33,162 nt of DNA. Origin: Nitrospira sp. (GTDB lineage Bacteria; Nitrospirota; Nitrospiria; Nitrospirales; Nitrospiraceae). Positions 9,761 through 33,025 of the stretch are shown piece after piece (position 1 is the first letter of the stretch; each line of letters begins with the position of its first letter). The position numbers were made by a program, and so were the translations under genes. The notes under the pieces were generated by a model. The model did not search any database, was not told the DNA's origin, and saw only the letters and a list, made by a program, of their open reading frames with translations. Location of the stretch: NCBI GenBank assembly GCA_030653545.1, contig JAURZE010000010.1:1-33162 (forward strand). The letters run 5' to 3'.

Positions 9761-11116
9761 CTACTCCTGAGTTCGTCGAAACACTCGCATCCGGATCCCG
9801 TTCCTCGGCCGCAAGGTCATCTTGGGCTCAGGCACGATCGTCTGCCCCTGGACCAGGGACAACTTGAACCGCTGCGCGATCGAGGCCAGCACTAAGATTG
9901 CCTCCATCTTGGCAAAATGCTCTCCGATACAGACGCGCGCACCGCCACCGAACGGGAAATAGGCAAACTGTGGGCGTTCTTTTTTTTCGGTTTCGGTAAA
10001 TCGTTCAGGGTCGAAGCGCTCAGGATCTGGAAAATACCGGGGATGGCGCTGCATAACGTATTGGCACAGATAAATTTTTGATCCTGCCGGGATGGTGACC
10101 CCGCTCGGTAGCTTGTCCTCCGCCTGCGCAATCCGCACAAAGAGCCAGGTGGGCGGGTACAACCGCATCGACTCGGCTAGTACCATTCCGCAATAACCCA
10201 AGCGAGGAAGATCGTCAGCAGATGGCAGCCGACCACCCAAAACCCTATCCACTTCCGCAAGGAATCTTGCCTCGATTGCCGGATGTTGGGACAGGAGATA
10301 GGAGGTCCAGGTCAACGCCTCGCCGATCGTCTCATAGCCTGTAACCAAGAGGGTTACGACTTCATCGCGGACCTGTTGGTCCGTCATGGCTGTCCCGTCG
10401 TCATATTTCGCGCAAAGCAACAGAGAGAGCAGATCCCTGCCGTCCGTAGGATATGCGCGCCGTGCCTGAATCGCTCGAGCCACGATGGTATCAATACATT
10501 GCATGGCTTGGCGGTACTTCCAGCCAATCCGGCTGGGCACCCATTCAGGGAAGGGAGAGAAGAACACATGCTCCATGTAAAGCCGCCGGATCGTAATGGC
10601 CTCGAGCAATGCGGGCAAGTTATCGTCAGCATCCGCTCCCAACAAGGTCTTAACGATATTCCGTTGGACGAGACCCATCATCTCGCATTCGAGGTCCAGC
10701 TCCATTCCGTCAGCCCACCGGACCAGCATCTCCCCGACCCCCTCGGTGATGATGCGAGAGAAGGATTCCACGGTCTTCCGGTAGAACACCGGCTGCATCA
10801 TCCTTCGCTGCCTCAAATGTTCAGGTCCCACACTGGTGAGCAGGCCCGCCCCCGACAATTTCTTTCCTTTCGCACTGGTCATGCGGGGCGATTTGCCGTA
10901 GTTGTCCGGATTGAGTACCAACACATGTTTGATATCGTCCGGATTATTCAAAAGGAAGGTCGGCTCTCCGATCTTCAATCTGATCACGTCCCCATAGGTG
11001 GCGGCACAGCGCGAGAGAAAACCTAGCTTGTCGTACAAGAACTCCGGCAGATTCCCCACCAGCGGATATCCCGTCGGTCCCCGCGCTATGGTCCTCGTCT
11101 GACTACTGTCGCTCAT
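9761..11116 (-). CDS. Cytochrome P450
   Basis: This 451-residue heme monooxygenase would insert one oxygen atom from O2 into a substrate, with electrons from separate ferredoxin or flavodoxin partners; none is encoded nearby. Diagnostic motifs are all present: the I-helix [13 protein letters not shown] (with the [A/G]Gx[D/E]T pattern), ESMRLYPP as the ExxR of helix [10 protein letters not shown], and the heme loop [16 protein letters not shown] with ligand Cys at about 396. It has no N-terminal membrane anchor. The overall pattern resembles bacterial P450s related to fatty-acid hydroxylases. ATG 11116 is chosen over TTG 11167 because the longer form adds an unconserved basic leader overlapping the GT4 gene. 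It sits between two glycosyltransferases, so it may hydroxylate a lipid or sugar part of the glycan. Confidence 0.95.
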
Positions 11117-11132
11117 ACGGATACGGCTCCCT

Positions 11133-12350
11133 TCACACCCCGACCGCCACACCCTTCTTTTTCCCAATGGTATCGATGACGCGCAGATAGCGAGCTAGGT
11201 ATTGTGCTCGCGTATAGAATCGCTCGTACCCGGATCGGGCCCGCTGCGCGAGTGCCTCTCGTAAGGTCGCGTCCTCCGCGAGCGCGGAGAGAATCTGCCG
11301 GAGCTCCTTTCCGGATCGATACACGAACCCGCCACCGGTTTTTTCGACCGCTTCCCGGTTCCCGCCGGCGTCATGCACCACAGCCGGTGTCCCGCAGGCC
11401 AGCGCTTCGAGCACGGTCAGCGGGAACACTTCCGGCGCCAGCGACGGAAGGATCAAGGCCGTTGCACTTTGATACGTCCCAATCAGCTCACGCTGAGGAA
11501 CCGATCCCAAGAAACGAATATGGCGGCAGCCGGAGTACTGCGTTTGAAGGGATTGTCGCAGGTCTCCGTCTCCAATGACGTTCAGATCGAATTCCGGCAA
11601 TCGCGCGAACTCCTCCAGAAGACCACCGATGCCCTTCGAAGCTGTGATGCGGCCGACGAACACAAAGCGCGGCCTTCCTCCGTCCGCAGGGCGTCCAGAA
11701 GATCCCGGCTCTAGGCTAGAGAACGTCGGTAAGACCTCGATGGGCGTAGTCAGTCCCGCGGCGCGGTGTCGCTGTGCCGTGTATTCGCTTGGAGCTAAGA
11801 GTGCGTCGACATTAGCCAAGCTGCGCTGAATCAAGTTCGTAAACCGCCACAATTGAGGAGGAACCTCTGATCGAAGGCAACAAGTGAAACACTCCGGACG
11901 GTCGCAGGCTTGAGCTTGATTCTTCCAGAAAATATGTGTCGGACAGAGCAGCCAGTGTTCGTGCAGGGTATACAGCGTCACAGGTGCGCGGCTCAGTTGA
12001 AGGACACCGGGTCCTCCGATCAAAGAAATGTTATGGAAGTTGACCACATCGAAATCACAGTCAAGTACCGCTCGCAGCTGTCTCGCCTTTACTCCCGGCC
12101 AGCCTGTTTGTTGGGTGAGCAGCGGAGACAGCTTACCGAAGGGGCTGCGCAGACGATGCACCACCACCCCATCCCGCTCGGCCTGTACAGCCGGCTGCTC
12201 CCTGCCTCGCAGGCGATAGGCATCTTCGCAGTGCACGACTTCGACATGATGGCCTTCGGAGACCAATGCGCGAGCGAGCGCCTGCACAAACGTCGCATCC
12301 CCACCAAAATGATAGGGAGGATAAAATGTGGTCACCATGCAAAAACGCAT
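11133..12350 (-). CDS. Glycosyltransferase family 4 (GT-B fold)
   Basis: This 405-residue retaining transferase has two Rossmann-like domains. The N-terminal domain starts MRFCMVTTFYPPYHFGG, with the GG loop at 16-17. The C-terminal domain (from about 230) has FVFVGRITASKGI and the donor-binding EVFPLTVLE (E307 and E315 of the EX7E motif) followed by ALACGTPAV. A cysteine cluster at C136, C149, C154, C157 and C158 could bind metal or be structural. ATG 12350 has AAGGA eight bases ahead and is preferred over the upstream alternative at 12410, which would overlap the preceding GT2. The gene lies 16 bases after that GT2 and 16 bases before the P450. Confidence 0.9.
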   Translation of the reverse strand: MRFCMVTTFYPPYHFGGDATFVQALARALVSEGHHVEVVHCEDAYRLRGREQPAVQAERDGVVVHRLRSPFGKLSPLLTQQTGWPGVKARQLRAVLDCDFDVVNFHNISLIGGPGVLQLSRAPVTLYTLHEHWLLCPTHIFWKNQAQACDRPECFTCCLRSEVPPQLWRFTNLIQRSLANVDALLAPSEYTAQRHRAAGLTTPIEVLPTFSSLEPGSSGRPADGGRPRFVFVGRITASKGIGGLLEEFARLPEFDLNVIGDGDLRQSLQTQYSGCRHIRFLGSVPQRELIGTYQSATALILPSLAPEVFPLTVLEALACGTPAVVHDAGGNREAVEKTGGGFVYRSGKELRQILSALAEDATLREALAQRARSGYERFYTRAQYLARYLRVIDTIGKKKGVAVGV

Positions 12351-18816: not shown

Positions 18817-20283
18817 TCAGGCTACTTGAGCCGGCTCCCGCTTTCGAATCAGCATCGAACGCACTGCGGCCAGCTCTCCATAGTGGAATTCCCCGATCAA
18901 CCAATAGCCGAGCACACTGATAATCCCGAGCAGCACCAGCTTGGGAAACACGAGCACCCCGGAGGTCGGCCACCAGAGCGAGACTGCCCCAACGACAAGT
19001 CCGATCGCCAGACTCCGGATCACCGTTCCAACCGGCGGCCACACCTTCCACAAGGCATACACACCTGCCCCCGCCGCAATCGCCCCAAAAGAGGAGACCA
19101 CAACAGTAACCCAGGCGGCACCTTGCTGTCCGAATCGGGGAATCAGTACGAGATGACCGGCCAATGCCAGCAGGACCAACGGGGCCGTAAACATGATCGT
19201 TCTGGCCGGTAATCCCGCAGCCGTCATGATCGTGATCGACACCATTAACATCACATTCGAGACCGCTCCGACAATCAGCAACGCCAACAGCGGGCCGGCG
19301 GGGAGAAACGCGGCGCCGAACACGACTTGCACGATCTCCGGGGCCGCACCGGCGATGATCGCCGCGACCGGAATGAGGAGCATCGTGACACGCAGCGCAT
19401 CACGCGCGAGTTCCCGCGCCCGCTCCTCTTGACAGTCCGCAAGCTGACGACTCAGCGTCGCAAGAAGCAGGGAGGAGAATGTCCAAGAAAACAATCCGGG
19501 CAGGAGCGAAAGACTTTGAGCCGCACTATAAATGCCGGCCTGTGCGGCCGTCCCTCCGAGGATCTTAAGCATGAAGAGATCCATCCCGTTGAAAAAGATG
19601 AGACAGATCGAGGACAGGAACAACAGAGCGCCGTATCGCTGAATCGGGAGAGGCACCGGAGCCTGCTTGACGAACATCCCTTCTCCGAGGTACCAGCGGC
19701 TGAGCAGAAGCTCTGCCAGCGACGAACCGATCACACCGAGCAATGCCCCCGTGATGGAGAAGCCGGCCTGCACAAGCACCACCACGAGCCCCATCCTGAC
19801 CAGCCAGCGGCCCGCCCTGGCGGCTGCTCCGGCCCGGTAATTGCCCATTCCAATCAATACGTTTCGATAGGCCTGTCCGACACATAACATCGGAATATCG
19901 AGCGCGCACACGCGGAGATAGAATGCCAAATCCGGCTCTTTGAACAACGCGCTGAGCGGGTCGGCGAGAATCCAGACAAAGACCATCGCCCCAATACCAA
20001 TCTTCAAACTGAGGCGAATCACCATGGCACCGACCGGTTTCCAATCGTCCGCCTCACCGACAAACTTGATCGTCGCCTTCGTAAAAAATGAGTTGATCGC
20101 ACTTTCGATCCAAATGATCGTGGTCAGCGTCAGAGCCAGCAACCCATAACCCTGGGGACCAAGTTGTCTCGTCAAGAAGCCAGTCGTAACAAGTGCCGTG
20201 AGCGGGAACAGCAGTTCCGCCAGAAATATCCGGGCGGTCCCGTCCATCATGCGACGCCCCGTAGTCGTTGTCAGTAAGCTCAT
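18817..20283 (-). CDS. Wzx-type polysaccharide flippase (MOP superfamily)
   Basis: This is a 488-residue integral membrane protein with about 12-14 hydrophobic segments. It would flip undecaprenyl-pyrophosphate-linked repeat units across the inner membrane. The N-terminus has the family hallmark FLTRQLGPQGYGLLAL (36-51). The central YSAAQSLSLLPGLFSWTFSSLLLATLSR is also typical of MOP-family exporters. AAAGGGTGGA ends directly at ATG 20283. It is the first gene after a 290-base gap containing a promoter and a hairpin, so it probably starts a second transcription unit. Which sugar it transports is unknown, and no Wzy polymerase is recognised beside it. Confidence 0.9.
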   Translation of the reverse strand: MSLLTTTTGRRMMDGTARIFLAELLFPLTALVTTGFLTRQLGPQGYGLLALTLTTIIWIESAINSFFTKATIKFVGEADDWKPVGAMVIRLSLKIGIGAMVFVWILADPLSALFKEPDLAFYLRVCALDIPMLCVGQAYRNVLIGMGNYRAGAAARAGRWLVRMGLVVVLVQAGFSITGALLGVIGSSLAELLLSRWYLGEGMFVKQAPVPLPIQRYGALLFLSSICLIFFNGMDLFMLKILGGTAAQAGIYSAAQSLSLLPGLFSWTFSSLLLATLSRQLADCQEERARELARDALRVTMLLIPVAAIIAGAAPEIVQVVFGAAFLPAGPLLALLIVGAVSNVMLMVSITIMTAAGLPARTIMFTAPLVLLALAGHLVLIPRFGQQGAAWVTVVVSSFGAIAAGAGVYALWKVWPPVGTVIRSLAIGLVVGAVSLWWPTSGVLVFPKLVLLGIISVLGYWLIGEFHYGELAAVRSMLIRKREPAQVA

Positions 20284-20437
20284 TCCACCCTTTCAGACAT
20301 CATGCGCGTAGGACTCTCTATCTCCTCAACAGATTCCGCCCAACTTGCTGGCGCCGACGTGCCCCCTTTCCCATCGCCTACTTGGCTACGCCCAACGGGC
20401 GCCCCCGGGATAAAAGAACTGCATGAGGCTTGGGATC

Positions 20438-20466
20438 AGTATAGAAACAAGATGGCGGGTAGCCAA
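20438..20466 (-). promoter_or_regulatory. Promoter upstream of the flippase gene
   Basis: On the minus strand TTGGCT (20461-20466) and TATACT (20438-20443) are separated by exactly 17 bases. The -10 matches the consensus at five of six positions. Transcription would begin near 20431, leaving a leader of about 150 bases before the flippase ATG. Confidence 0.45.
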
Positions 20467-20537
20467 TACCTCTTACCTCGATCTTCCCCTACCAAAGAGG
20501 GGCGAAGGGAAAGAGGGACCAAGGAGAATCCGCAGCA

Positions 20538-20564
20538 CAGGGCGAACCAGATGGTTGGGCCCTG
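20538..20564 (-). terminator. Strong hairpin after the cellulose-synthase-like GT2 gene
   Basis: CAGGGC (20538-20543) pairs with GCCCTG (20559-20564), and inside it AACC (20545-20548) pairs with GGTT (20553-20556) around a 4-base loop. It begins ten bases after the stop at 20575 on the minus strand. No pure T-run follows, so termination may be partial or Rho-assisted. Confidence 0.38.
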
Positions 20565-20574
20565 GAAGGATGAG

Positions 20575-22149
20575 TTACCGACTCACGCGGCGTCTCAAGA
20601 CCCCGCTCCACTCTGTGACCATCAGGCCCACGGTGAGGACCACAAGCCCCATCGCGCACAACTGGGCTGCGAATGGAAGGGTTCCATGCAAGCTCAGTCC
20701 TATTGCCCACGCCAATCCTACTATCCCCAGGGAAATCAAGTGCGGCCATAGCACGAAGGATGTGCGGCAAGGGTCCACGATTTTTGGAGTCGTGATAAAA
20801 GGGAACTGGCGGTTGACCAAGACATCGACAACGGCCGCTATTTGATACGGCCATTTCGCGAATTGCAGGAGGCCGGCTCGCCAATGAATCCCCTGCTCCG
20901 ATTTCTTATTCAAGTAGAACCCTTGTCGATATCGCTCCCAAAACCGCAATATAACAACCATGAACCCGCCACTGACCAGCGCTTCGGTGGTTGCCAGAGA
21001 GGGAATGTTCCCGGATACCAGCATGAACGCCACAAGCATCATCGCAATAGGAAGCACCATGCTCCAATGGACATAGTTCAATCCGTGCAAGGAGTTCAAC
21101 AATGCGGCAGTCGGCGAGAGGTTCCGGGCTACTGAAGACCCGATCCGTAGCTTCACGTCGAGGACAGAACGGGTCCACCGCCGTTGCTGATTGAGATAGG
21201 CCGGCCAGTCCACCGGAGCCAACCCTCGGGCCAGCACCTCAGGAACATAGACGCCTTCCCACCCACGATTCTGGTACAGGAGCGTCAGCAGCAGATCGTC
21301 GGCATCGTGCGCCGCGAACCCGCCGCACTCGCGCAAGGCGCTGAGACGGTGTGTGTTGTGACACCCGATGATGAGCGGAAACCCTTTCCCATGACAGGCC
21401 ATTTGCACGAGCGAGTAGAACTCATAGGTTTCTTCAGCCGCCCCTCTGGCGATAAAGCTCGCCTCTTGGTTGCCATACACCTGCGGAGCCTGCACATATC
21501 CCACTTTTGCATCATCGAAATACCCGAGGACTTTGGCGAGATACACACGATCAGGCACGTGATCGGGATCAAATGCCGTCAGGATCTCGTATCGATCGAA
21601 TCCGATCTCATGGAGCCAGGCATTAAAGTTTCCATGCTTTGAAGCCTTCCGAAACATGCCGGCCTCGGCCTGATAGCGCGGGAACGACTTGCGGCTGAAA
21701 TGATGGACGCCCAGTGCGGCGCAGACCTGCTTAACCCGCTCGTCATCTCCCTCATCCAGAACCCACGTGTCGTGAGGATAATCGAGGTTCACCAAGGCCT
21801 TCAGGGTCTGTTCCAGCAAATCCAATGGCTCAATCCCCGGCACATACGTGGTCACGACCGCAACCTTCCAGCCCGGTCTCGGCAAAACAGCTCTTGGCCG
21901 CTTCATACTGGGAAGAATCAGCCATCGCCCGAGATTGTTGAGGAGAATCACCGCGAGGATCCCGGAACAGACCGCCATGACAAATGAATGTTCTCCCCAC
22001 GCCTGGAGTTGAAACCAGAGAAAGAGAAACGCCGCGATTGCTGCCACTCCCGACCCCGTCAACAGCCAGTAAACGAACCGGTCTCCCGGCTTGAGAACGT
22101 CGTCACTTACCACTCTGGTCGAAAGACTGTTCCCGGTAGACCGCTCCAT
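20575..22149 (-). CDS. Processive cellulose/hyaluronan-synthase-like GT2
   Basis: This 524-residue membrane transferase resembles the processive branch of GT2. Two hydrophobic segments at about 27-48 and 56-78 precede the catalytic domain, and four or more follow it (about 340-385 and 455-515). The catalytic markers are complete: VLDEGDD (D132), FDPDHVP (DxD at 194-196), HDADD (281-285, catalytic base region) and QQRRW (321-325), the QxxRW motif that holds the acceptor chain. FKHGNFN-type sequence is present as SKHGNFNAW. Such enzymes polymerise and extrude a beta-linked homopolymer or add a single sugar. It lacks a fused PilZ domain, unlike many cellulose synthases. ATG 22149 lies four bases after the upstream fusion gene's stop. 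Confidence 0.9.
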   Translation of the reverse strand: MERSTGNSLSTRVVSDDVLKPGDRFVYWLLTGSGVAAIAAFLFLWFQLQAWGEHSFVMAVCSGILAVILLNNLGRWLILPSMKRPRAVLPRPGWKVAVVTTYVPGIEPLDLLEQTLKALVNLDYPHDTWVLDEGDDERVKQVCAALGVHHFSRKSFPRYQAEAGMFRKASKHGNFNAWLHEIGFDRYEILTAFDPDHVPDRVYLAKVLGYFDDAKVGYVQAPQVYGNQEASFIARGAAEETYEFYSLVQMACHGKGFPLIIGCHNTHRLSALRECGGFAAHDADDLLLTLLYQNRGWEGVYVPEVLARGLAPVDWPAYLNQQRRWTRSVLDVKLRIGSSVARNLSPTAALLNSLHGLNYVHWSMVLPIAMMLVAFMLVSGNIPSLATTEALVSGGFMVVILRFWERYRQGFYLNKKSEQGIHWRAGLLQFAKWPYQIAAVVDVLVNRQFPFITTPKIVDPCRTSFVLWPHLISLGIVGLAWAIGLSLHGTLPFAAQLCAMGLVVLTVGLMVTEWSGVLRRRVSR

Positions 22150-22152
22150 CTC

Positions 22153-23736
22153 TTATCCACCCCTCTCGTTTGGACCTAAAGGGCGAAGCCTTTCGGCATC
22201 GGTGCTCCGCCAGGTCTGCCGCGCTCCTGTCCGAACGACGAGGCCGCGATAGGCCCCCACGCCAAATACGGTACGCAGCCACAGACGGCCCAGGACCCGC
22301 CAATACCCCCATCCCACCTGGGCCAGCTTGAACGAGGACATGCCCATATCCGGCGTGCGATTGATCCAGGAAATCGGGACCTCCTTCACCTGATAGCCCA
22401 TCAACAGAGGCTGCAACCCGGTCTCCGCATTCACCGCGAACCAGGGCTCCACAAGGCAGAGCTGCTCCACGACTTCGCGGCGAAGCAGCTTCAGATTATT
22501 GGTGAGGTCGCGGAAACGGCGGAACAAGAGGATCTGAGCGATCAGGTGGAACCCCCGGTTGGCGAGGATCTTCCCGAATGGGTAGTTCAACAAGACACTA
22601 TGTCGGGAGAACCGGCTCCCGACGACCACGTCATACCCTTTCACGGCTTCGTCGAACAGATCCGCTATTTCCGGCAACAGATGTTGAAAATCGCAATCCA
22701 TGGTGAGGACGTAGCGTCCTGTGACCGCTCGGTAACCATCTGATAAGGCCCGACCGACTCCGTTCGGACCTGTCCGCGAAACCAGCCGTATCCGGTCGTC
22801 GACGGCCGCCATGCGCTTGATGACAGCGGCTGTCTCATCCTTGCTATTGTCGTCGACTAGCACGATCTCGTGAAGATAGTCGTTGTAGAGACGGCGCAAC
22901 CCATCCACAAGGGGCCCGACATTCATCTGTTCGTTGTAGCAGGGAACCACGACGGAAAGGGATCTCCTCAGCGATGCGTGCGAGGCCAACGACACGGCCG
23001 GTCGTTCAACGATGCGGGGAGGCTTTTGGGCATGCACCAGAATGGCGCCTGCTAAGGTTCGAATCACCGGCGCATTCTCCAGAATGATCGAAAGATTCCG
23101 GAAGAACCAAACGAGCCGCGGGGAGAGCGGGGCAAAAACAAAATCGTTAAATACGGCAAACACCCGAATAAAACCCACTTCCGACATGAGTTCGTACAAT
23201 TGGCCACGGCTAAGAAGGGACCGGGGGTCTGCCTTACCGAAGACACGCGCCAGCAACCGGCGAAGCTTCAGGACAACGTTCCACGGATTGCTTTCATAAA
23301 ACACCACCTGTCCACCAGGCTTCAAGAGATCCAGTACATGCTGCAGCACCGCTGCGCAGTTGCGTTTATCGAGCAGATCAATGGCCACGACAAAGTCAAA
23401 TTGCCGTTCTCTCAGAGTATCCGGGAAGACATCTGCAGCGATGAACTCGACGGGATCCTGGATTTGGTCCGGCTTGCCCGCAAGGGAATCGAAGGTCACG
23501 GCGGCAATGGGGTTTCTGCCGTGGGTCACCTGTACGAGCTGCCGTGTAAAGAGGCCCTGGCCGCATCCCAATTCAAGGATGGTTTGCCCAGGCAGAAGAT
23601 GAACCAGATGCCGGAAGGACTGTGCACGCCAACGAAGACGATCACTCGCAATAGGGTCACGCTGCAGAAGATATTCGTCTCGAGTCTTTTCACAAAGCGC
23701 AAGGGTTTGGAGCATCGATTGGTCAGAGGTACTCAT
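22153..23736 (-). CDS. Methyltransferase - glycosyltransferase 2 fusion protein
   Basis: One 527-residue ORF carries two enzymes. Residues about 20-235 form a class I SAM-dependent methyltransferase: TILELGCGQGLF (52-63, motif I), FIAADVF, FDFVVAIDLLDK, and LLKPGGQVVFYESNPWN. Residues about 258-500 form a GT2 of the dolichyl-phosphate-mannose-synthase type: SVVVPCYNEQ (261-270), IVLVDDNSKDET (291-302) and LTMDCDFQHLLP (344-355, DxD at 347-349). VVGSRFSRHS and LTNNLKLLRR follow, in place of the usual DxxSGFR. The linker is short (about 20 residues) and the frame is continuous. A likely job is to attach a sugar to polyprenyl phosphate and methylate it or a neighbouring group. The start lies 9 bases after the epimerase stop. 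Confidence 0.88.
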   Translation of the reverse strand: MSTSDQSMLQTLALCEKTRDEYLLQRDPIASDRLRWRAQSFRHLVHLLPGQTILELGCGQGLFTRQLVQVTHGRNPIAAVTFDSLAGKPDQIQDPVEFIAADVFPDTLRERQFDFVVAIDLLDKRNCAAVLQHVLDLLKPGGQVVFYESNPWNVVLKLRRLLARVFGKADPRSLLSRGQLYELMSEVGFIRVFAVFNDFVFAPLSPRLVWFFRNLSIILENAPVIRTLAGAILVHAQKPPRIVERPAVSLASHASLRRSLSVVVPCYNEQMNVGPLVDGLRRLYNDYLHEIVLVDDNSKDETAAVIKRMAAVDDRIRLVSRTGPNGVGRALSDGYRAVTGRYVLTMDCDFQHLLPEIADLFDEAVKGYDVVVGSRFSRHSVLLNYPFGKILANRGFHLIAQILLFRRFRDLTNNLKLLRREVVEQLCLVEPWFAVNAETGLQPLLMGYQVKEVPISWINRTPDMGMSSFKLAQVGWGYWRVLGRLWLRTVFGVGAYRGLVVRTGARQTWRSTDAERLRPLGPNERGG

Positions 23737-23745
23737 ACCACTCTC

Positions 23746-24801
23746 TCATTCATGCAACCGAACATTCCAAGCCATGATCATGTCCCGGAACACGTCATCA
23801 AGCGATTTGCTCACAGACCACTTCGGATAATGCTTCTGAAATCTGGCGAGATCGCTGATGTAGCAAATATGATCGCCTGCACGCGGCTGATCAAGGTACT
23901 CGTATTGCATTTTCTTTCCTGTCAGCTCCTCGACAATATCGAAAGCCTCTAGTATGGAGCAGGAATTCGCCCGCCCGCCCCCCATGTTGTACACTTCGCC
24001 GGATCGAGGATTCGCATAGATTTCTTCAATGGCCCGAGCCACATCGAAACTGTGGATGTTGTCCCTCACCTGCTTCCCCTTATACCCATAGATTCGATAC
24101 GTCTTCCCGCTCAGCTGCGTCTTGACCAGATACGACAAGAATCCATGGAGCTCGACACCCGAATGATTCGGACCGGTCAGGCACCCCCCACGGAGACAAT
24201 GCGTCTTCATGCCAAAGTACCGGCCGTACTCTTGCGTCACCACATCGGCCGCAACCTTGCTGGCTCCGAAGATTGAATGTTTCGACCGGTCGATCCGCAT
24301 CGCTTCTGTCACCCCTTGGTAGTCCTCCTGTCGAGCGTAATCCCAACGCCGATCCAGCTCTTTCAGCGGCAACTCATTGGGGGCATCCCCGTATACCTTA
24401 TTCGTCGACATGAAAACGACGACGGCCTCCGGGGAATGTTGCCGAGTCATCTCTAAGACATTGAGCGTCCCTGTCGCATTGACGTCGAAATCGTCAAATG
24501 GACGACTGGCCGCCAGGTCATGGCTGGGTTGGGCCGCACAATGCACAATCAGATCGAAAGGTCCTTCGTGCTTGAAGAGACCGGAAAGCCCTTCCCGATC
24601 TCGAATGTCGAGCTGGTGATGAGAGAACCGACGAGTACTCTGGCGCAGCCGTTGAAGATTCCACGTCGTGTCACCTTCCGGGCCGAAAAAGTCCGCTCGC
24701 ATATTGTTGTCAACGCCGATCACGCGAGTAGCACGGCAGTCGAAAAACGTGACGAGCTCAGACCCGATCAGACCGCTCGAGCCGGTGATGAACACTTTCA
24801 T
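23746..24801 (-). CDS. NAD-dependent epimerase, CDP-tyvelose 2-epimerase-like
   Basis: This is a 351-residue extended short-chain dehydrogenase. [12 protein letters not shown] (4-15) is the NAD-binding GxxGxxG loop, and HCAAQPSH and MSTNKVYGD (131-139) are the expected strand motifs. The long stretch [20 protein letters not shown] and [20 protein letters not shown] resembles the CDP-paratose/tyvelose 2-epimerase group, so the substrate may be a CDP- or UDP-linked deoxysugar or hexose. At the YxxxK position it reads FGASK (178-182), with Phe in place of Tyr. ATG 24801 begins the first strand. It lies 25 bases after the polyprenyl GT2 and directly before the methyltransferase fusion. Confidence 0.88.
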
Positions 24802-24826
24802 ACAGTGGCACTCCTTCTCTCGATCG

Positions 24827-25981
24827 TCATGCTTTCTTCATGGACATCGCTGAGATGAAGAGGGAAGAAAACATCGTCCCCCCTCCTATAATGATGAGAG
24901 TGGCGCCCAGCGATACCCATTCGGGACGCGAGAGCGGCAAAAATCCTGACTGTATCCACTCCCATACCAGGAAGGCGAGAAGCGCCATCCCGATGAGCAG
25001 GATGCCCCCGCCGAGCAAGAGCCCGGTCTCAAGGCGAAACCAGTCGTAGAACGCACCGAGTCCCTTATTGTTTCTGTCGAAGCGACGACTCCATGAATAG
25101 GTCTTGGCGTGCAGGCCTAAACTCACGACTTGAAATCCCACCACGCTGAAGATCGTGCCAAAAATTCCTGTCGCGGTCCCGAGGGGCTTCCCGTTGAACT
25201 GGATGAGACCAGCCAGGGAGACAACATGCGCGGCAACCCCAAGCGCCAGCGACAGGAGGCCCGGGAGGAAGAACACCTTGTTGGGACAATAAATCAACAT
25301 CATACGGAGACTTCGCCAGCCATCTCGAAAGGTCCGCAGCTTGGACTCCCCTTTTCGCTCAGCCAGCTGGATCGGCAACTCAGCCGTCTTCAAACCGGCC
25401 AAGCCTGCATTGATGGCCAGCTCGAGATTAAACTCCATACCGGGGCTGACCGGTTGGATCAGGTCGTACGCCCGTCGACTAAAAGCGCGATAGCCACAAT
25501 ACACATCGGTATAGTCGGTCTTGAACAACACATTCAGAATTTTCGTCAGCAAGGGATTCCCGAAGAACCGATGAAGAAAGGGAATCGTGGCATGCCCCCC
25601 TTCGAGATAGCGACTCCCGGTCACGAAATCGTGGCCCTCTTGTAGCTTGTCGAGAAAGATGGGGATCATCGTGAAGTCATAGGTATCATCGGCATCCCCC
25701 ATGACAAGGTATCTGCCCTTGGCGCTCGCAAACCCCTTCAAATACGCATTCCCATATCCCCGTTCCGGCTGATGCACGATTCGGGCGCCCATTGCTTCCG
25801 CAATTGCCACGGATCGGTCCGTCGATCCATTGTCGCAGACGACAATCTCGCCATCGAGCTGCGCCTTGTCGAACGTGTCCCGGATCTTCTGGAGGCAGGC
25901 ACCGATGGCCGCCTCCTCATTGAGGCAGGGGAGCACGACGGAGACCAACGGAAGCAATTCACCCTTAGAAGTGCCGATCAT
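24827..25981 (-). CDS. Polyprenyl-phosphate-type GT2 with C-terminal membrane domain
   Basis: This is a 384-residue protein. The N-terminal GT2 domain (about 10-235) has [10 protein letters not shown] (14-23), [10 protein letters not shown] (46-55), [12 protein letters not shown] and [11 protein letters not shown] (92-102). It also has the signature CGYRAFSR near 160-170, matching GtrB/DPM1-type enzymes that load a sugar onto polyprenyl phosphate. A C-terminal region with four hydrophobic segments (about 243-265, 272-295, 325-350 and 360-380) anchors it. Its product would be the donor for the GT-C proteins encoded just upstream. The ATG at 25981 overlaps the upstream stop as ATGA. The trailing MKKA ends just at the membrane surface. 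Confidence 0.9.
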
Positions 25982-27603
25982 GGTTGAGGCTCCAAGGATA
26001 CGGCCGACGAGATAGCCTTGCTCCTGACAAGGAATAACAAGTGATCATCGACCTTCGCGCGCAATTCAATCGCGACTGGTGCCGATACCAGCTCTGTGAG
26101 AAGCCAGGTGAGATTCCCGTGACGCCCACCGTTTAGATACACAAAGAACTTCGGGTGCGCCTCAAGATATCGAGAAAATTCTTCGATATGAAAACCAAAC
26201 CACGGCCTGAGATCCAAAATCCCTCGATCGACCGTGTCATGCCCGAGATGCCGCAACGATGCTTGAGGATCTGCCAGATAAACCAGTCGGGACGACAGTT
26301 CACGGGGAGCATAGTGAGACAACATCATGAACGAATGAGCATCGGACACCACGACGGGCAAACTCGTAATCGATTCACGTCCGATCAACTCATAGACTTT
26401 CCCAAAGGACGCTTCCATCGCACCTTGCAGGTTGCGAGCGGACAACATGCCGAATCCCGCGCACGACAAAAGAAGAATCGCGACCCCCACAACAGCATGC
26501 CCTTGAAAGAGCCGCGCTATAGCCACGGCCACGAGCACACTGACTCCAAGCACAGCGGGCAAGGCATACCGAAACGTGAATGCCCCAGTCGTCAGCATGG
26601 TCGCCAGTACAGCGATGATCGGGAGTGCGACAAACCCTGCGGCCACCAGACCTTCGTGGACAGGGGCAAGAGAGTAACTGGCGGCAGCCTGAGGGCGCAA
26701 CTTCCCTGAAAGCGAGAGGGAATAGAGCCCACTTAGAATCAAGACGGCCAGCGCCAGCAAGGGCGTCGGCATGAGCAGGGCTGAATAGGCATCCGGGAGC
26801 GACTGCAAACTCGGCCGAGCCCAAAACCCTTGGGAATAGGTTCTCGCTTGTTGAATGAGGGGCGCCAAAAACAGCAACGGGGATAAGGCGCTCATCATCG
26901 AGAACCAGATCGGCCAATCTACACGACGTCGGACCATAGAACGCACCAACTCACCGATTCCAAGCGGGACAAACACAAAAACAGCGTAGTAGTGGCTGCA
27001 CACAGCGGCAGCCAGACTCGCCGCAAGCCCCGCGATGGAAAGTTTCCGGGATCGACCGGACGTTGCCTGTAGCCAGCACAGCCAGGCGAGGGAGGAAAAG
27101 GCCAAAACCAATCCGTACGGCCTTGCTTCGTAGCTGTATAAATTCGCGCCCGTCACAAAGAGAAATACCATCGCGACGAATCCATACAATGCCTCAGTTT
27201 GGCGTGCAACGATGTGAAAGAGACAGAGCCCCGCCACCCACACTCCGATCATTTCCGGCAAACGCAGGGCCCATTCATTGACGCCGAACAAAGCAAGCGA
27301 CCATCGAGTCAACACGTAAAACGGGAATGGAGTCTGATCTGCCCCAGTGAGGAGCGCGGACCAGATGCCGGAGAGCGTAGGTGCCTGGGCGATAAAGTAT
27401 GTGAACAGTTCATCGTTCCACATGGGCTTGCGCGAGGCCAGCAGGCTTGTCGCCGTGAAATACATGAGCGAGACCGCCGCCAACAGCCACATCCTGCGCC
27501 GGTCGCACAGCCCTCGAAAAGCTTCCGCAGAGTCCTCGACCCATTGCCAAGCTTTCACGAAAACCGGCGACGTTTCCGGCGCAATCATATCAGCCGACTT
27601 CAT
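25978..27603 (-). CDS. GT-C-like polytopic membrane glycosyltransferase
   Basis: This is a 541-residue protein with about 11-12 hydrophobic segments. The first periplasm-type loop contains KPMWNDELFTYF, with the Asp-Glu pair at 64-65 at the place of the catalytic acid in GT39/ArnT-like enzymes. DQTPFPFYVLTRWSLALFG and LRLPEMIGVW, then SYEARPYGL, are typical of this superfamily. A soluble C-terminal stretch (about 430-541) follows the last span. ATG 27603 has AAAGGAG four bases ahead; it overlaps the upstream gene by 14 bases. An ORF extending to 27717 runs inside the upstream gene and is rejected. It likely transfers a sugar from polyprenyl phosphate on the outer face of the inner membrane. 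Confidence 0.85.
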   Translation of the reverse strand: MKSADMIAPETSPVFVKAWQWVEDSAEAFRGLCDRRRMWLLAAVSLMYFTATSLLASRKPMWNDELFTYFIAQAPTLSGIWSALLTGADQTPFPFYVLTRWSLALFGVNEWALRLPEMIGVWVAGLCLFHIVARQTEALYGFVAMVFLFVTGANLYSYEARPYGLVLAFSSLAWLCWLQATSGRSRKLSIAGLAASLAAAVCSHYYAVFVFVPLGIGELVRSMVRRRVDWPIWFSMMSALSPLLFLAPLIQQARTYSQGFWARPSLQSLPDAYSALLMPTPLLALAVLILSGLYSLSLSGKLRPQAAASYSLAPVHEGLVAAGFVALPIIAVLATMLTTGAFTFRYALPAVLGVSVLVAVAIARLFQGHAVVGVAILLLSCAGFGMLSARNLQGAMEASFGKVYELIGRESITSLPVVVSDAHSFMMLSHYAPRELSSRLVYLADPQASLRHLGHDTVDRGILDLRPWFGFHIEEFSRYLEAHPKFFVYLNGGRHGNLTWLLTELVSAPVAIELRAKVDDHLLFLVRSKAISSAVSLEPQP

Positions 27604-29416
27604 GACGCTCCTTTTCGCTGCGAGCGTTCTCAGGCATGAGAAGCAGCAATCCCGTCTCAGGCTGCACGATGACTGAGCCAGGACGAACGTGCTCATAAAT
27701 TTCGAACGCCTGCTCATGTCGCGCTCCGGTTTCTGTCACGACGTCATCACTGTAGACGCGTTTCCAGCGATCAGGGAAACCCTCGACTACACTTTTCATA
27801 AAGCGTTTGCTATCAATGGCCAAGCCCTCGTCAAGAATCAGATAGGTGACCGGCACTGACTCCAAGAGTTGCACGGCCTTGATGGGGTCCGATTCAAACG
27901 GGGGCATTACCGACTTGTTTCCCGTTCTTAGATAGACCCAATGGGGCACTGAAACGGCAATGACGTCATGTGGTTTGGTATGCGCCATCAACCAGTCCAC
28001 ACCCCCGTCAAGAGCCCGAAATGAATCCATGTAGAAAAATGAACGATAGCCAACCATATCGCCTTGCCGAGTCTTGAACTGCACCGGAAGGTGGCGCTTC
28101 GTATAGACCGCCACGGTCGTTGCAATCTGCTGCACGAGAATCCCGACCACAAGCAAGTAGGCAAGGACATGGACTACGCTCTTCCATCTGGTTGGCGGAC
28201 GCCTTTGCGCCTGCCTCAATACCCAAGCAATTGCGGTACATAAGGACAAGGCCAACAAGGGAACCGTGGGCATCAGATACCGATTAAATTGGTCCGGCCA
28301 GGGTGTAAGACAGATCACTGAAATGGATGAGAGCACGCAAAGCGGAACAACTATATGTCCTTGGGCTGCAAAAATACCCGTACCAACCAGTACAAGACTC
28401 CCCAAGGCAATCAAAGGAACATCAATAAGCCACTCTGGTTCAGCTTTAATCCCCATTTGTTTTGCGACCTCTTCCCATTCTACTTTCCACACGGGCCGCA
28501 TCGAACTTACGGACTCCCCGATATACCTTGTCACATGGGCCACGTTGTGGAAGTACCGTTCGACCCGATCCGAAAGTGTCGAATACCCCAAGTCGGGATC
28601 AAAGGGGTCGTTGAGCGACACGTTCTTTGCATAACTGACATTGTAGAACATATAGTCGGCACGCTGGTACGCATACGGGGGACGTTGATACTCCGCACTC
28701 GTCTCGACGTAATGCACATACGAAAACCATCCGAGGATGGGAACCAACGAGATCGCGACCCGAATGGCCACAGTCTTCCATTGCCTCCTGACAAGCCCTT
28801 CAGCTATCCAAGCCGCGAACAGAGCAATACCGGCAGTACGCGAAGCAAACGCTGTCATGGCAAAGGCCCCCGCCCATGCCGGAGAGAGCCACCACCCTTC
28901 ACTTGAACAGGCAAGGAGAAATCCAACGGTGAGAAGACCATAGAGCAGGTCAGGAAAACACAAATCGGATAAAAAATACGTCTGTACGTTCAAGAGGCAT
29001 ACTACTGTCCCAAAGAAAGCAAAAGCGCTCGAAAGATACCGTCGCAGTAGCGTATAAATAGCAAAGATATAAGTCGCAAAGACTAAAAATGATGAGAGTC
29101 GGAGAAAGCGGCCAACAACAAGCGGGTCGCTCGTCCCGAGAACGAGTTGATGCGCAGCAATGATCAGCGGAAGTAGCGGAGGGTACTGATTGGCCTGGAT
29201 CTCGCCGGGCTCGTTGAGCAGCCGATATCCCTTCCCCTCGGCGAGCGACGTCCCGAGCACATAGTACACGCCTCCGTCCCAGCGCAAATCGATCGGGCCT
29301 TGGAGGCGAGGCAACCATAGCGCGATGACCAACAATCCGAGGATTGTATACAGAGTCCGCTCCTTGCTTAGCTCACTCCGCAACATCTCCCACATAGCCG
29401 GCACACTTCGGTTCAA
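27590..29416 (-). CDS. GT-C-like polytopic membrane glycosyltransferase
   Basis: This is a 608-residue protein with about 10-12 hydrophobic segments in its first 420 residues and a large soluble C-terminal domain. The first loop has LRWDGGVYYVLG (44-55) with Asp47, then GKGYRLLNEPG and ANQYPPLLPL, the usual pattern of GT-C relatives. The start is TTG 29416, with GAGG seven bases ahead; the first in-frame ATG is 29395 but has no ribosome site. Its stop is inside the next gene by 14 bases, so translation is coupled. Together with the neighbouring GT-C gene and polyprenyl GT2 it forms a periplasmic glycosylation set. The sugar is unknown. Confidence 0.83.
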   Translation of the reverse strand: MNRSVPAMWEMLRSELSKERTLYTILGLLVIALWLPRLQGPIDLRWDGGVYYVLGTSLAEGKGYRLLNEPGEIQANQYPPLLPLIIAAHQLVLGTSDPLVVGRFLRLSSFLVFATYIFAIYTLLRRYLSSAFAFFGTVVCLLNVQTYFLSDLCFPDLLYGLLTVGFLLACSSEGWWLSPAWAGAFAMTAFASRTAGIALFAAWIAEGLVRRQWKTVAIRVAISLVPILGWFSYVHYVETSAEYQRPPYAYQRADYMFYNVSYAKNVSLNDPFDPDLGYSTLSDRVERYFHNVAHVTRYIGESVSSMRPVWKVEWEEVAKQMGIKAEPEWLIDVPLIALGSLVLVGTGIFAAQGHIVVPLCVLSSISVICLTPWPDQFNRYLMPTVPLLALSLCTAIAWVLRQAQRRPPTRWKSVVHVLAYLLVVGILVQQIATTVAVYTKRHLPVQFKTRQGDMVGYRSFFYMDSFRALDGGVDWLMAHTKPHDVIAVSVPHWVYLRTGNKSVMPPFESDPIKAVQLLESVPVTYLILDEGLAIDSKRFMKSVVEGFPDRWKRVYSDDVVTETGARHEQAFEIYEHVRPGSVIVQPETGLLLLMPENARSEKERHEVG

Positions 29417-29436
29417 GCTACAACCTCACATTCACA

Positions 29437-29745
29437 CTACTTCTTGTGGACATCTACCACCGCATTGTAAATCCGCCCAACCAGCCACCCGATCGCCCCT
29501 CCCGTGATGGCTCCGTATAGCAATCCGACAAATGCACCCGGCCAACTCACGGAATACCCGACAAAATAGTTCGAAAGCAGCTGAAGATGCTGCCCCGCCT
29601 GGACACCATCTTTAATGACCAACCACACCGTCATCGTAAAAAGCCCTGCTCCCCCGATCAGCCCGCAAACCACCGCCAGCGCGTCCGCCTTGATCCTGGC
29701 GAGAGCGTGGGTCACTTCTTCCGTCTGCTTCATGTGCGGCTTCAT
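29437..29745 (-). CDS. Stand-alone membrane module (102 aa) homologous to C-terminus of neighbouring flavoprotein
   Basis: This 102-residue protein has two hydrophobic hairpin-like regions (about 22-45 and 68-90) around a short GQHLQLLSNYFVGYSVSWPG segment. The whole core (about 15-93) aligns without gaps to residues 509-587 of the flavoprotein encoded just upstream. By eye about 28 of 79 positions match, including L-L-x-N-Y and W-x-G-A. No known family is recognised. AAGGCGGTGA five bases before ATG 29745 decides the start over GTG 29754. It starts 29 bases after the flavoprotein stop. It may be a membrane-recruitment or partner subunit; this is inference from the duplication. Confidence 0.8.
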   Translation of the reverse strand: MKPHMKQTEEVTHALARIKADALAVVCGLIGGAGLFTMTVWLVIKDGVQAGQHLQLLSNYFVGYSVSWPGAFVGLLYGAITGGAIGWLVGRIYNAVVDVHKK

Positions 29746-29774
29746 CACATTCACCGCCTTTCTTCTGAAATGGA

Positions 29775-31616
29775 TTACATCTTGTCGAGAAGATGGCGAC
29801 GCTCATCCCGCTCTGCGCGCCACCGAACGAATTTTGCATAGCCCGTAAGCGTCCAATTTCTGAGTCCAGCCGCAAGTGCCCCCACCGCAAACCCCAACAG
29901 CCCTGCTTCGACTAACCCGATCACCGCGCCTGCCCACGTGACTTCAAACCCGAACAGGTAGTTCCCGAGCAACGACAAGTTTGGACCAGGCGCAGCCCCG
30001 CCTCTAAGTAACAAGACGGCCGAGGCCAGGAATATTCCGAGACCGCTCACCACACCGACGGCTAGCCCCAAGGCCAGTGGATCGATTTTCGCAAACGCGA
30101 CTTCGATCACGGCGTCTTCAGCTTCCTCTACCGCCTCATCGACCGAGACAGAGACTCGCGTCGGCACAAGCCGATCGCCGGTGTTCGGCTGAGTCGCTCG
30201 TTCTTCTTCGTGATATTCCTTCTCTGTGTTGACGGCCCAGACATCGCGCTTGTCTCCGAGAATGTTCCCGGCCGCATACACGCCGGTCAGCATGGAGTGG
30301 TCTTGATTGTTATAGCGATGCAATCCGTTTCGCCCGATGGTCTGCAGATTCGAGAAGGTCTCTAGATAGCGACGGATCGTGCCGACGCTGTCTTGATACG
30401 TCTGGTCGTAGACCGGATAGGCCTTCTCCATCCGCACGACCGTCCCGTCTTTGACTTCCCGCGGATCGATGAGGCCGATTTGCGCGCATTCACGAATGCC
30501 CAGTTCAATGAGGCGCTCATCCGACCACGTCCACATATCATCCGTATCCCACAAGAAATATTCCAATCCCAGTGAGGTCCGTGAGGCGTCCGGTACCATA
30601 TAGGGACTCCAGTTTTTGTAATTCTGAATCCGCCCGAGCTTGACCTCCGGCGAATGCACGTAGAGCCAATTGTCGGGGAAGACGGACTCGCGATCGATGA
30701 CCAGTACTACCGTCAGGTAATCCCGGTAACGGAGAGCTTGTGCGGCTTTGAGCACATCCTCTGGCGGCAAAGGATCCAGGGCCTGCACCAGTTCACGTAG
30801 CGGCATCGTCGACACGAAATGCCGGCCGTCATACTCCAGCGACTCACCGGCTGCGCCACGCCCCTGAACGCAATCGACCAGCCCGTGACGATGCCGGACA
30901 CGCTCCACTTTCACGCCTTGGATCGTCTGAGAGCCCTGACTTTCGATCAAACCGCGGCATCGTTCCCACATCAACCCCGGGCCAAAGCGGGGATAGTGAA
31001 ATTGCTCGATTAGAGAGGTCAATGTCGACCCGTCCATGCCCTGTTTGGCTCCGAACAGCGCATTCCGCACGGCTTGTTTCAGTGAGAGGTTCTTGATGCG
31101 TTGCGCCGCCCAGTCCGCTGAGATCTCGTGGCACGGAATTCCCCAGACCTTCTCCGTGTAGGTCTTGAAGAAAATGCTGTACAGCCGATACCCGAATCGG
31201 TTGGACACCCACTGCTCGAATGTTTTCTCATCCTGGATGTGGAAGAACTTGGCCTTGATGTAGCTGAGGCCGATCAGAAACGATTCCAACGGGCCGAGAC
31301 CGGTCAGCGCATTCAGCGGTTTGAGAGGGTAGTCAAAGAAGTGTTGATTGTAATAGATGCGGGAGATGCGCGGACGCAGCAAGAACTCCTCTCCAAGAAT
31401 TTCGTGCCACAGTTCATTGATAAGGGGGACTTTGGAGAAGAATCGATGTCCGCCGATATCAAACCGATACCCGCGATAGTTGACGGTTTTCGAGATTCCC
31501 CCGACCTGATCGCTCGCCTCGAGCACGGTAGACGTCATGCCCCGCTTGCCCAACTCGTAGGCGGTCGTGAGCCCTGCCGGCCCTGCCCCGATGATAATAG
31601 AAGACTCTTGGCTCAT
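29775..31616 (-). CDS. UDP-galactopyranose-mutase-like FAD protein with C-terminal membrane module
   Basis: This is a 613-residue protein. Residues about 5-470 form a flavin amine-oxidase/UGM-like domain: [17 protein letters not shown] (7-23, FAD Rossmann loop), [27 protein letters not shown] (50-62), and [17 protein letters not shown] near 427-442, where FAD contacts lie. In related proteins such domains rearrange or oxidise sugars or isoprenoids. A charged linker rich in Glu (about 485-505) leads to a membrane module with hydrophobic segments at about 514-537 and 560-584 and a basic tail. The same module is encoded separately just downstream. The ATG overlaps the upstream GT2 stop (ATGA). 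Exact substrate is unknown; UDP-galactofuranose formation is one possibility, not shown. Confidence 0.87.
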
Positions 31617-32689
31617 TCGCGTTTCTCCACTCGTGATCTTGCGCGTCGTGCGTCTTGCGTGACCAGGGAAGCAGGCCCCTTAAGCTCCCCTTCACCCTTT
31701 GCGAAATAACACACCGTTCCGACGGCGAAGGCGACTCCGCTATACAGAAAATACAACCAGTGCCACGGGACGGTTTGCGCAGCGAATCGGAGTCCGCGCT
31801 TCTCCAGGAAGAATCGGTAGAGCCTGGCATTGAGGGAAAAGAGCATCACCCCCATCATGGCAGCCCCGACCAAGAAAAGTGGCTGCCAGGGAGACAGCAT
31901 GAGTGCGCCGAGCAGTCCAGCTGCCAGCATGACGCTCACGCGCCCGGAGATGCCGATATTCAAATCGTTCACAAAGCCTCGATGCCGGTGAATCAGCTGT
32001 GTCCATGGCACGGCCCGCTGAAAAAAGTCAGCCTGGAGCATCGACCCGATCGTCCAGCGTTTCCAATGTTTGACCTGAATGGATTTACAGAGCCGAATCC
32101 TGTGACCGGCTCGTGTGAGGCGGTAGCCCAATTCAATATCTTCGATGGAGGGCTTGCGATACGTTTCATCGAATCCGCCCATCGCGAGAAAGACCTCCCG
32201 CCGGATCGCCCCACAGGCGCCCCAAAACGTTGAGGCCTCCTCCCGGCCATTCTGATGGACGTAATGGTGCAGGAGATTCCTGTACTGTGAAAGAAAATTC
32301 GCTTCCCCCGGCTGATCGTCATAGGACCCGATCATGGCCGCTATCTCAGGATGCCGAGCAAAGATGTCCCTTACCTGCTCAATCACCTTCTCAGGCACGG
32401 TTACGTCCGCATCGATGAAGAAGAGCAGATCCGAGGTTGCCTTCGATGCGCCGAGATTCCTGGCGCGACCGGGCCCCCCCGGTTGGGGAAAGCGATACAG
32501 GGTCACGCCGGCCGCCTCTGCGTACTGCGAGGACCCGTCGGTATCCCCATCGCCGATTACGATGAGTTCATCCGGCGGAGGCACCGTCTGCCTGATCGAT
32601 TCCAGGCTCGCGCGAAACTTTGCGCCCCCGTTGTAGACGGGAACAATAACTGCGACGGTCAAGGGTGAGAGAGTTAACGTTGTTTTCAC
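31613..32689 (-). CDS. Glycosyltransferase family 2, membrane-associated
   Basis: This is a 358-residue protein from GTG 32689. [11 protein letters not shown] (12-22), [10 protein letters not shown] (44-53), [11 protein letters not shown] and [11 protein letters not shown] (90-100, DxD at 93-95) are the GT2 motifs. [21 protein letters not shown] gives the ED motif of the catalytic base. The C-terminal third has hydrophobic segments at about 250-290 and 320-340, so it is membrane-attached. The start is uncertain. GTG 32689 has GAG six bases ahead, while the first in-frame GTG at 32731 has no ribosome site and adds an unconserved leader. This is the first gene of the 25-kb minus-strand run. Confidence 0.87.
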
Positions 32690-33025
32690 CTTATTCTCGT
32701 GTATCACACGCCCAGGGCCAGAGCGAGTCACCCGTTGTCGCAGGTCGTCGCTTCAGCACTTTAGCCTGCGAGTAGTATGAGCCCGATGAATTGGCAACAG
32801 ACTATAGGATGCGGATTAGCAGAACAATCCCACCTTGATGGGGGGGGAGCATCTACCAAAGAGAGGTCGCCATAAGTGATTTTCATATTGCGCGCTCAGC
32901 ACTTCGCGCATTACTCTGAGTCAAAAATAGTCCCAAGAATAAAAGTAATGGACACAGCCAGACCTTATCAACACACGCCCAAGGGAGCATTAATCTGCCT
33001 TTTCGTTTTCCTTTGTCTTGGCGCG
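32690..33025. other. Gene-free region between the glycan locus and the transposase remnant
   Basis: No convincing gene is seen in these bases. Visible elements are a TATAGT hexamer on the minus strand (32801-32806), a possible -10 of the glycan run with only a weak TTGTTC 15 bases ahead. There is also a run of eight G (32840-32847) just upstream of it, and a visibly AT-richer stretch from about 32870 to 33020. The latter may belong to the end of the insertion element whose transposase terminates at 33026. Confidence 0.5.

Follow-up and report, generated by a model that had tools for sequence, protein, structure and literature searches.

We identified a gene at 22153..23736 on the minus strand of the window (the whole 33,162-nucleotide stretch of Nitrospira DNA analysed) that encodes one polypeptide, which sequence comparison predicts is probably a methyltransferase (MT) joined to a lipid-sugar synthase. 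The fusion sits within surface-polysaccharide gene clusters in several bacterial phyla. Its parts are as follows.

22153..23736, minus strand: fusion protein, 527 aa, ATG start; MT at about residues 35-240, linker at 238-259, DPM1-like GT2 at about 258-490, variable tail at 491-527.
23017..23736, minus strand: methyltransferase half (residues 1-240); class I fold, ELGCGQG at 55-61, invariant ESNPWN at 148-153, strand-2 end without an acidic residue.
22156..22965, minus strand: GT2 half (residues 258-527); VDDNS.D, DCD at 347-349, GSRFSRHSVLLNYP and TNNLK; zero TM-like segments.

A two-domain protein conserved across phyla

The initial annotation had described a continuous frame at 22153-23736. 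The coordinates hold, with the strand to be specified: the single 527-aa frame is read from the minus strand, and the plus strand is interrupted by stops. The residues it quoted lie in the translation as expected (ELGCGQG at 55-61, VDDNSKDET at 294-302, DCD at 347-349). Pfam searches detect Methyltransf_23 at 38-189 (E 1.1e-11, 45.2 bits against a cut-off of 27) and Glycos_transf_2 at 261-426 (E 7.9e-30, above cut-off). The joint, put at about 20 residues, measures 22 from the last MT strand (231-237) to the first GT2 strand (260-266). An AlphaFold2 model, computed from an alignment of 27 sequences (the window copy and 26 relatives), displays two well-formed domains with a mean pLDDT of 83 and a pTM of 0.82.

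Relatives were gathered by one short-peptide-pattern scan of a public genome collection, which recovers close relatives only and does not measure the overall frequency of the family. The scan gave 29 loci from Nitrospirota, Rokubacteria, Cyanobacteria, Bacteroidota, Chloroflexota and Verrucomicrobiota, together with single bins labelled Alphaproteobacteria and Deltaproteobacteria. Both halves are present in 27 of these loci, at 59-90% identity over the best segment; the two others, L060 and L064, are partial, with contig ends interrupting the fusion. All 27 aligned sequences match both Pfam families, which is beyond chance, and the linker (238-259) is ungapped in every one of them, as anticipated for an architecture that recurs. 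The alignment holds 127 invariant columns, 50 of them within the MT half. Compared with the window copy, the relatives are 57-91% identical over the MT half and 62-95% over the GT2 half; neither half has decayed among them.

We considered and rejected the idea that a sequencing or assembly error, or a frameshift, had artificially joined two genes. The window is a 33-kb contig in a 39-contig assembly, but the fusion is found in independent genomes, among them the complete chromosome CP019636.1, which carries two copies, and the single-contig genome G022; an artefact has thus been refuted and retains a vanishingly small probability. In the genome G025 one TGA was flagged inside the 527-residue match. 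The ORF of that copy is 538 aa long, with 524 residues matched at 87%, so the flagged TGA sits at the extreme C-terminus.

In a draw of 295 Nitrospirota genomes the fusion occurs in five, all of one genus, and in one cyanobacterial family it occurs in 2 of 118 genomes. This patchy occurrence over several phyla suggests a module moving between phyla. A Nitrospirota-binned contig (L052) carries a copy 64% identical to that of the window, which is the cyanobacterial level and may reflect transfer or mis-binning.

We also surveyed 18 regions for split genes, 16 around SDR copies away from the fusion (the SDR gene is described below) and two around the fusion. Outside the two fusion regions, no ORF in this set matched the MT half at E 1e-8. 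The ORF caller missed one of the 16 SDRs (L113, a 61% match otherwise present), so small or overlapped genes may escape it too. Likewise, when 39 genomes were searched with only the MT half, no close stand-alone relative emerged; three genomes had a match, two of them fusions and one weak (32% over about 100 residues).

Properties of the two halves

Modelled alone, the MT domain adopts a Rossmann-like class I fold, with Z 18.6 to Coq5 (4obw). CmoM and others are tied with Coq5 at Z of about 18, so no particular methyltransferase family is indicated, and such searches report on the fold and not on cofactor use. Motif I (E.GxGxG) is largely kept: E55 and G59 are found in all 27 sequences, G57 in 26 and G61 in 24. 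In class I methyltransferases, an acidic residue ending strand 2 usually binds the SAM ribose. Strand 2 of the fusion (77-81) ends without one, and all 27 aligned sequences read T81-F82 there; residue 83 is Asp in 7 of 27 and otherwise mixed. T81 falls on the Asp of ToxA in the alignment, and the alignment with 5wp5 is shifted by one. The initial annotation had called the MT motif set complete, which was too strong. Since the invariant T81-F82 replaces the ribose-binding acid, SAM binding by the MT half is not certain.

The MT half nevertheless appears to be under constraint. Its invariant polar residues comprise W36, R37, R42, H46, E148, N150, N153, R172, R177, D198, R213, N214, E220 and N221. 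The 50 invariant MT positions, many of them polar, are what a constrained active site would be expected to show. The MT half is either an active enzyme whose SAM site is unusual or a domain put to another use, and its conservation argues against decay.

The assignment of the second half as a DPM1-type GT2 was borne out by structure comparison. Its best solved match is the DPMS of Pyrococcus furiosus (5mlz, Z 25.3, rmsd 2.3 over 228 residues, 27% identity), whose three entries score Z 25.3, 24.8 and 23.7. GtrB (9nyc, Z 22.2) and ArnC (9bhe, Z 22.1) are tied with the soluble mannosyl- and glucosyl-3-phosphoglycerate synthases MpgS and GpgS (Z 21.0-21.5), and only DPMS stands clear of the tie. 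The GT2 half is thus no closer to GtrB or ArnC than to the phosphoglycerate-type synthases. By sequence the order is DPMS (E 3.7e-20), ArnC (1.6e-10) and GtrB (6e-10). Both aspartates of the metal-binding DxD, D347 and D349, are invariant (27/27), and the stretches DxD, GSRFSRHSVLLNYP and TNNLK are invariant or nearly so among the 27 sequences.

C-terminal TM segments are present in GtrB and P. furiosus DPMS, and human DPM1 is not known to have them. A simple hydropathy scan found no TM-like segment in the 527 aa of the fusion. The fusion is like the DPM1, GtrB and ArnC synthases in the fold and DxD of its GT2 half and in having a GtrA neighbour in Cyanobacteria, and unlike them in lacking a TM-like segment of its own and in carrying an N-terminal MT domain.

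Gene neighbourhood

The main genes from 18817 to 32731, including a GT2 and an FAD enzyme upstream of a polytopic pair, all lie on the minus strand, and the cluster contains many other GTs. Neighbour ORFs were called with a simple caller (at least 90 aa, longest start, greedy overlap), so that starts may be too long, and TM counts come from a hydropathy scan and not from a TM predictor. The genes closest to the fusion are these.

18817..20283, minus strand: MOP-superfamily polysaccharide flippase (PF13440/PF01943/MurJ), 12 TM-like segments, two genes downstream of the fusion.
20575..22149, minus strand: cellulose-synthase-like GT2, 5 TM-like segments; begins 3 bp past the fusion stop.
23746..24801, minus strand: SDR of 351 aa, lying 9 bp upstream of the fusion; Phe in place of the catalytic Tyr.
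24827..25981, minus strand: second GT2 (AglJ/DPM-like), 4 TM-like segments.
25978..27717, minus strand: PMT_2 protein (PF13231, GT-C), 10-11 TM-like segments; candidate periplasmic sugar transferase.
27590..29416, minus strand: large polytopic protein, 7 TM-like segments.

The closest solved relatives of the SDR are CDP-tyvelose 2-epimerases (9rl0, E 1.9e-38; 1orr, E 1.7e-31). According to the relevant passages of PMC13098431 and PMC7851689, these enzymes invert C2 of CDP-hexoses and use Thr124, Tyr164 and Lys168 in catalysis. The SDR is like them in keeping the STNKVYGD motif and the active-site Lys: the Thr of the triad is present in 21 of 22 copies (Ser in one) and the Lys in all 22. In contrast, Phe takes the place of the catalytic Tyr in all 22 copies, as it does in all 15 additional ones selected by motif, and Trp207, Trp210 and Phe211, which bind CDP in these epimerases, correspond to Phe, Tyr and Leu in the window SDR. 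Lacking both the catalytic Tyr and the CDP-binding Trp pair, the SDR is TyvE-like and not a member of the CDP-tyvelose 2-epimerases. The Phe-type SDRs (23746-24801 and L110-L127) form a clade related to these epimerases. At four loci (L116, L117, L118 and L120) the Phe-type SDR directly adjoins another SDR of the TyvE-like kind (identity about 28-33%), and such pairs perhaps form a two-enzyme sugar pathway.

An SDR homologue lies near the fusion in 22 of 30 loci (the window and L036-L064), and four of the eight loci without it are cut by contig ends. A whole-genome search of 24 genomes that carry the fusion, representing 24 of the 29 loci, found the SDR in 22, including all four whose loci lack it despite available flank. 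In the Nitrospirota draw, at E 1e-30, it occurs in five of five genomes with the fusion versus 34 of 290 without (hypergeometric 3e-5, uncorrected for kinship). Two of those five genomes, G025 and G309, do not have it beside the fusion: the cluster is kept (L122 in G025, L121 and L123 in G309) with no SDR between the fusion and the membrane GT2, and an SDR lies on another contig, at 51% in G025 and 65% in G309. The position of the SDR varies: it may precede or follow the fusion or lie on the opposite strand. The association is therefore more than inherited gene order. It is also found in sugar-related clusters of Nitrospirota that have no fusion.

Membrane proteins recur around the fusion as well. 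In the window, PF13231 matches 25978-27717 with 39.1 bits (cut-off 26.1). PMT_2 relatives (clusters c9 and c5) are encoded within three ORFs of the fusion in 14 of 29 loci; beyond Nitrospirota, all six scanned score below the Pfam cut-off (17.7-25.0 bits). The protein at 27590..29416 has no Pfam match at E 0.01, and a homologue adjoins the fusion in Verrucomicrobiota loci. This ORF and 25978-27717 overlap by 128 bp in the mechanical ORF list, which suggests that the start of 25978-27717 was probably placed too far upstream. Homologues of the second GT2 (24827..25981) are found near the fusion in the Verrucomicrobiota loci L058, L062 and L064. More broadly, 24 of 30 loci (the window, L036-L063 and L077) encode a polytopic protein with a minimum length of 380 aa within three ORFs of the fusion, and 45 of 154 ORFs near the fusion are polytopic versus 9 of 139 far from it; flippases and membrane synthases fall into this class too, and in L036 nothing else does, so that it is not specific for GT-C enzymes. 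In L041 and L048 neighbouring genes are adjacent and overlap by a few bases.

All eight cyanobacterial loci encode GtrA (PF04138) close to the fusion; Pfam confirms the assignment in seven, and in Gloeothece it comes from the annotation. Members of the GtrA cluster are absent from the other 23 of 30 loci, and a search of the window's own genome found no GtrA. Of 18 further non-cyanobacterial genomes with the fusion, 12 lack GtrA; the remaining six encode one, which was not found close to the fusion. The MOP protein at 18817..20283 is a possible replacement for GtrA as flippase. SDR, GtrA and PMT_2-related genes thus recur near the fusion, as the check on recurrent neighbours had asked, though not in every genome.

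Further features of the window were seen by eye. A 105-aa ORF at 29437-29754 (minus) has two TM-like segments and resembles the C-terminal tail of the FAD-dependent protein at 29775-31616 (minus); that tail matches a holin_4 model with 28.5 bits, far under the cut-off of 70. A cytochrome P450-like gene at 9761-11167 (minus) is placed centrally in the glycosyltransferase cluster, and its relatives, at 39-40% identity, occur near the fusion of a second family, family B, in 9 of 12 loci examined.

A second fusion family and a proposed role

The architecture itself is already known to annotators and is not new. NCBI uses the product name 'Bifunctional class I SAM-dependent methyltransferase/glycosyltransferase family 2 protein' for the Azospirillum proteins WP_014189992.1 and WP_137143692.1, which belong to family B. 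Of 295 Nitrospirota genomes, 50 match family B at E 1e-60 (42 with both halves, eight partial). The rarity implied by the statement that the two domains normally occur separately therefore does not hold. Family B proteins (L065-L076, L089 and L090) have about 500 aa and are also encoded on 16 Azospirillum plasmids. They share the domain order and similar length of the window family, and a profile of 14 of them aligns with it end to end (probability 99.8, 382 columns, 28% identity). Unlike the window family, from which they are distant (25-29% identity), they keep the strand-2 Asp (D104, invariant in 14 of 14) and have a different gene neighbourhood.

A tree of GT2 halves does not unite the two families. 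When they are constrained to group, the tree is slightly better and a common fused ancestor is not rejected (AU p 0.652); for this reason we dropped the idea that the two MT-GT2 families arose separately. The tree omitted L003 (the window's own second GT2), L017 (a family-B fusion), L004, L022 and one of ten rows of the second GT2 group (the script found no start motif in these last three), L032 and L035 (long branches), and L060 and L064 (partial). In the Nitrospirota draw, 5 of 295 genomes carry the window family (family A) and 50 carry family B, with no overlap; chance alone predicts fewer than one genome with both, and for that reason we make no claim of mutual exclusion. Phrase searches of the open-licence literature, which other wordings would escape, yielded no study of an MT-GT2 donor synthase from bacteria.

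The analysis shows a single polypeptide, both folds, their conservation and the gene neighbourhood; what each half catalyses, on which substrate and in which order, and where the methyl group goes, we infer. Our leading proposal, which we hold tentatively and at somewhat less than an even chance, is that the fusion acts as donor synthase in a three-component extracytoplasmic glycosylation system and that its MT methylates the same sugar. The fusion would be cytoplasmic and probably membrane-associated. The neighbouring SDR probably helps to make the nucleotide sugar, from which the GT2 half would transfer a hexose to polyprenyl phosphate. The MT half would methylate the same sugar, most likely by O-methylation, just before or after loading. 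The lipid-linked methyl sugar would then be flipped, by GtrA in Cyanobacteria and by another flippase in Nitrospira, and a GT-C enzyme would place it on a surface polysaccharide. By coupling both activities, the fusion would let only methylated donor leave the cytoplasm. The SDR, PMT_2-related and GtrA neighbours, where present, fit a lipid-linked sugar.

Known systems resemble this arrangement in part. Passages of PMC11127046 on synthase/flippase/GT-C systems indicate that an SDR epimerase can set the identity of the sugar and that other flippase types can serve in place of GtrA. The fusion loci are like the three-component Gtr systems described there for Citrobacter youngae O1/O2 in clustering a candidate synthase, a GT-C-like protein, an SDR and, in Cyanobacteria, a flippase. 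They are unlike them in that the MT is fused to the synthase and that no flippase has been identified in the window genome, and the comparison is one of genes. The PBCV-1 protein A064R, as portrayed in passages of PMC9614988, likewise has GT and MT domains on one chain, and its MT domain O-methylates the rhamnose that its own GT domain adds. A064R differs in having two GT domains and a C-terminal MT, and in being made of rhamnosyltransferases that act on a viral N-glycan; the likeness is one of outline only.

Other readings divide the two halves differently. The GT2 half could make a lipid-linked sugar while the MT acts elsewhere, on the growing glycan, on polyprenyl phosphate or on a neighbouring residue, the fusion serving co-localisation only. 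No observation here links what the MT methylates to what the GT2 half makes, the cluster offers many other GTs, and the different neighbourhood of family B implies that the MT-GT2 pairing is not bound to one pathway. However, an ungapped linker in 27 sequences and the presence of both halves in 26 relatives exceed what loose tethering needs, and A064R, a GT-MT fusion whose activity was tested, acts on one sugar in the account given by PMC9614988; we consider separate substrates unlikely.

It is less probable still that the MT half no longer methylates and now shapes the GT2 active site as a scaffold or sensor that does not depend on SAM. The invariant Thr-Phe at a site where family B keeps its Asp speaks for this, as does the silence of fold searches on cofactor use, yet motif I is largely kept, the invariant polar residues point to a ligand-binding pocket, and the MT half is only somewhat less conserved than the GT2 half and has not decayed. 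We give the lowest standing among these to a GT2 half that is an ordinary cytoplasmic glycosyltransferase, acting like glucosyl-3-phosphoglycerate synthase on a glycan or small molecule and not on a lipid. Such a role would suit a protein without TM-like segments that is tied, at the level of GtrB and ArnC, with GpgS and MpgS, and most non-cyanobacterial fusion genomes searched lack GtrA. Against this, DPMS leads both by structure (Z 23.7-25.3) and by sequence, GtrA stands beside all cyanobacterial loci, and PMT_2-related genes are neighbours; a soluble enzyme of this kind is thus improbable.

We return to the donor synthase with a built-in methyltransferase. A fuller version of this proposal, which we regard as rather doubtful, is that the lipid-linked sugar is already methylated when it is exported and is then attached outside the membrane, that the MT binds SAM without the acidic contact, and that the SDR epimerises without the catalytic Tyr. 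To our knowledge, the timing of sugar methylation in surface glycans relative to export is often unknown in bacteria. If the proposal is true, a donor synthase with its own methyltransferase would settle the order of methylation and export for one pathway and would provide a handle for making methylated glycans.
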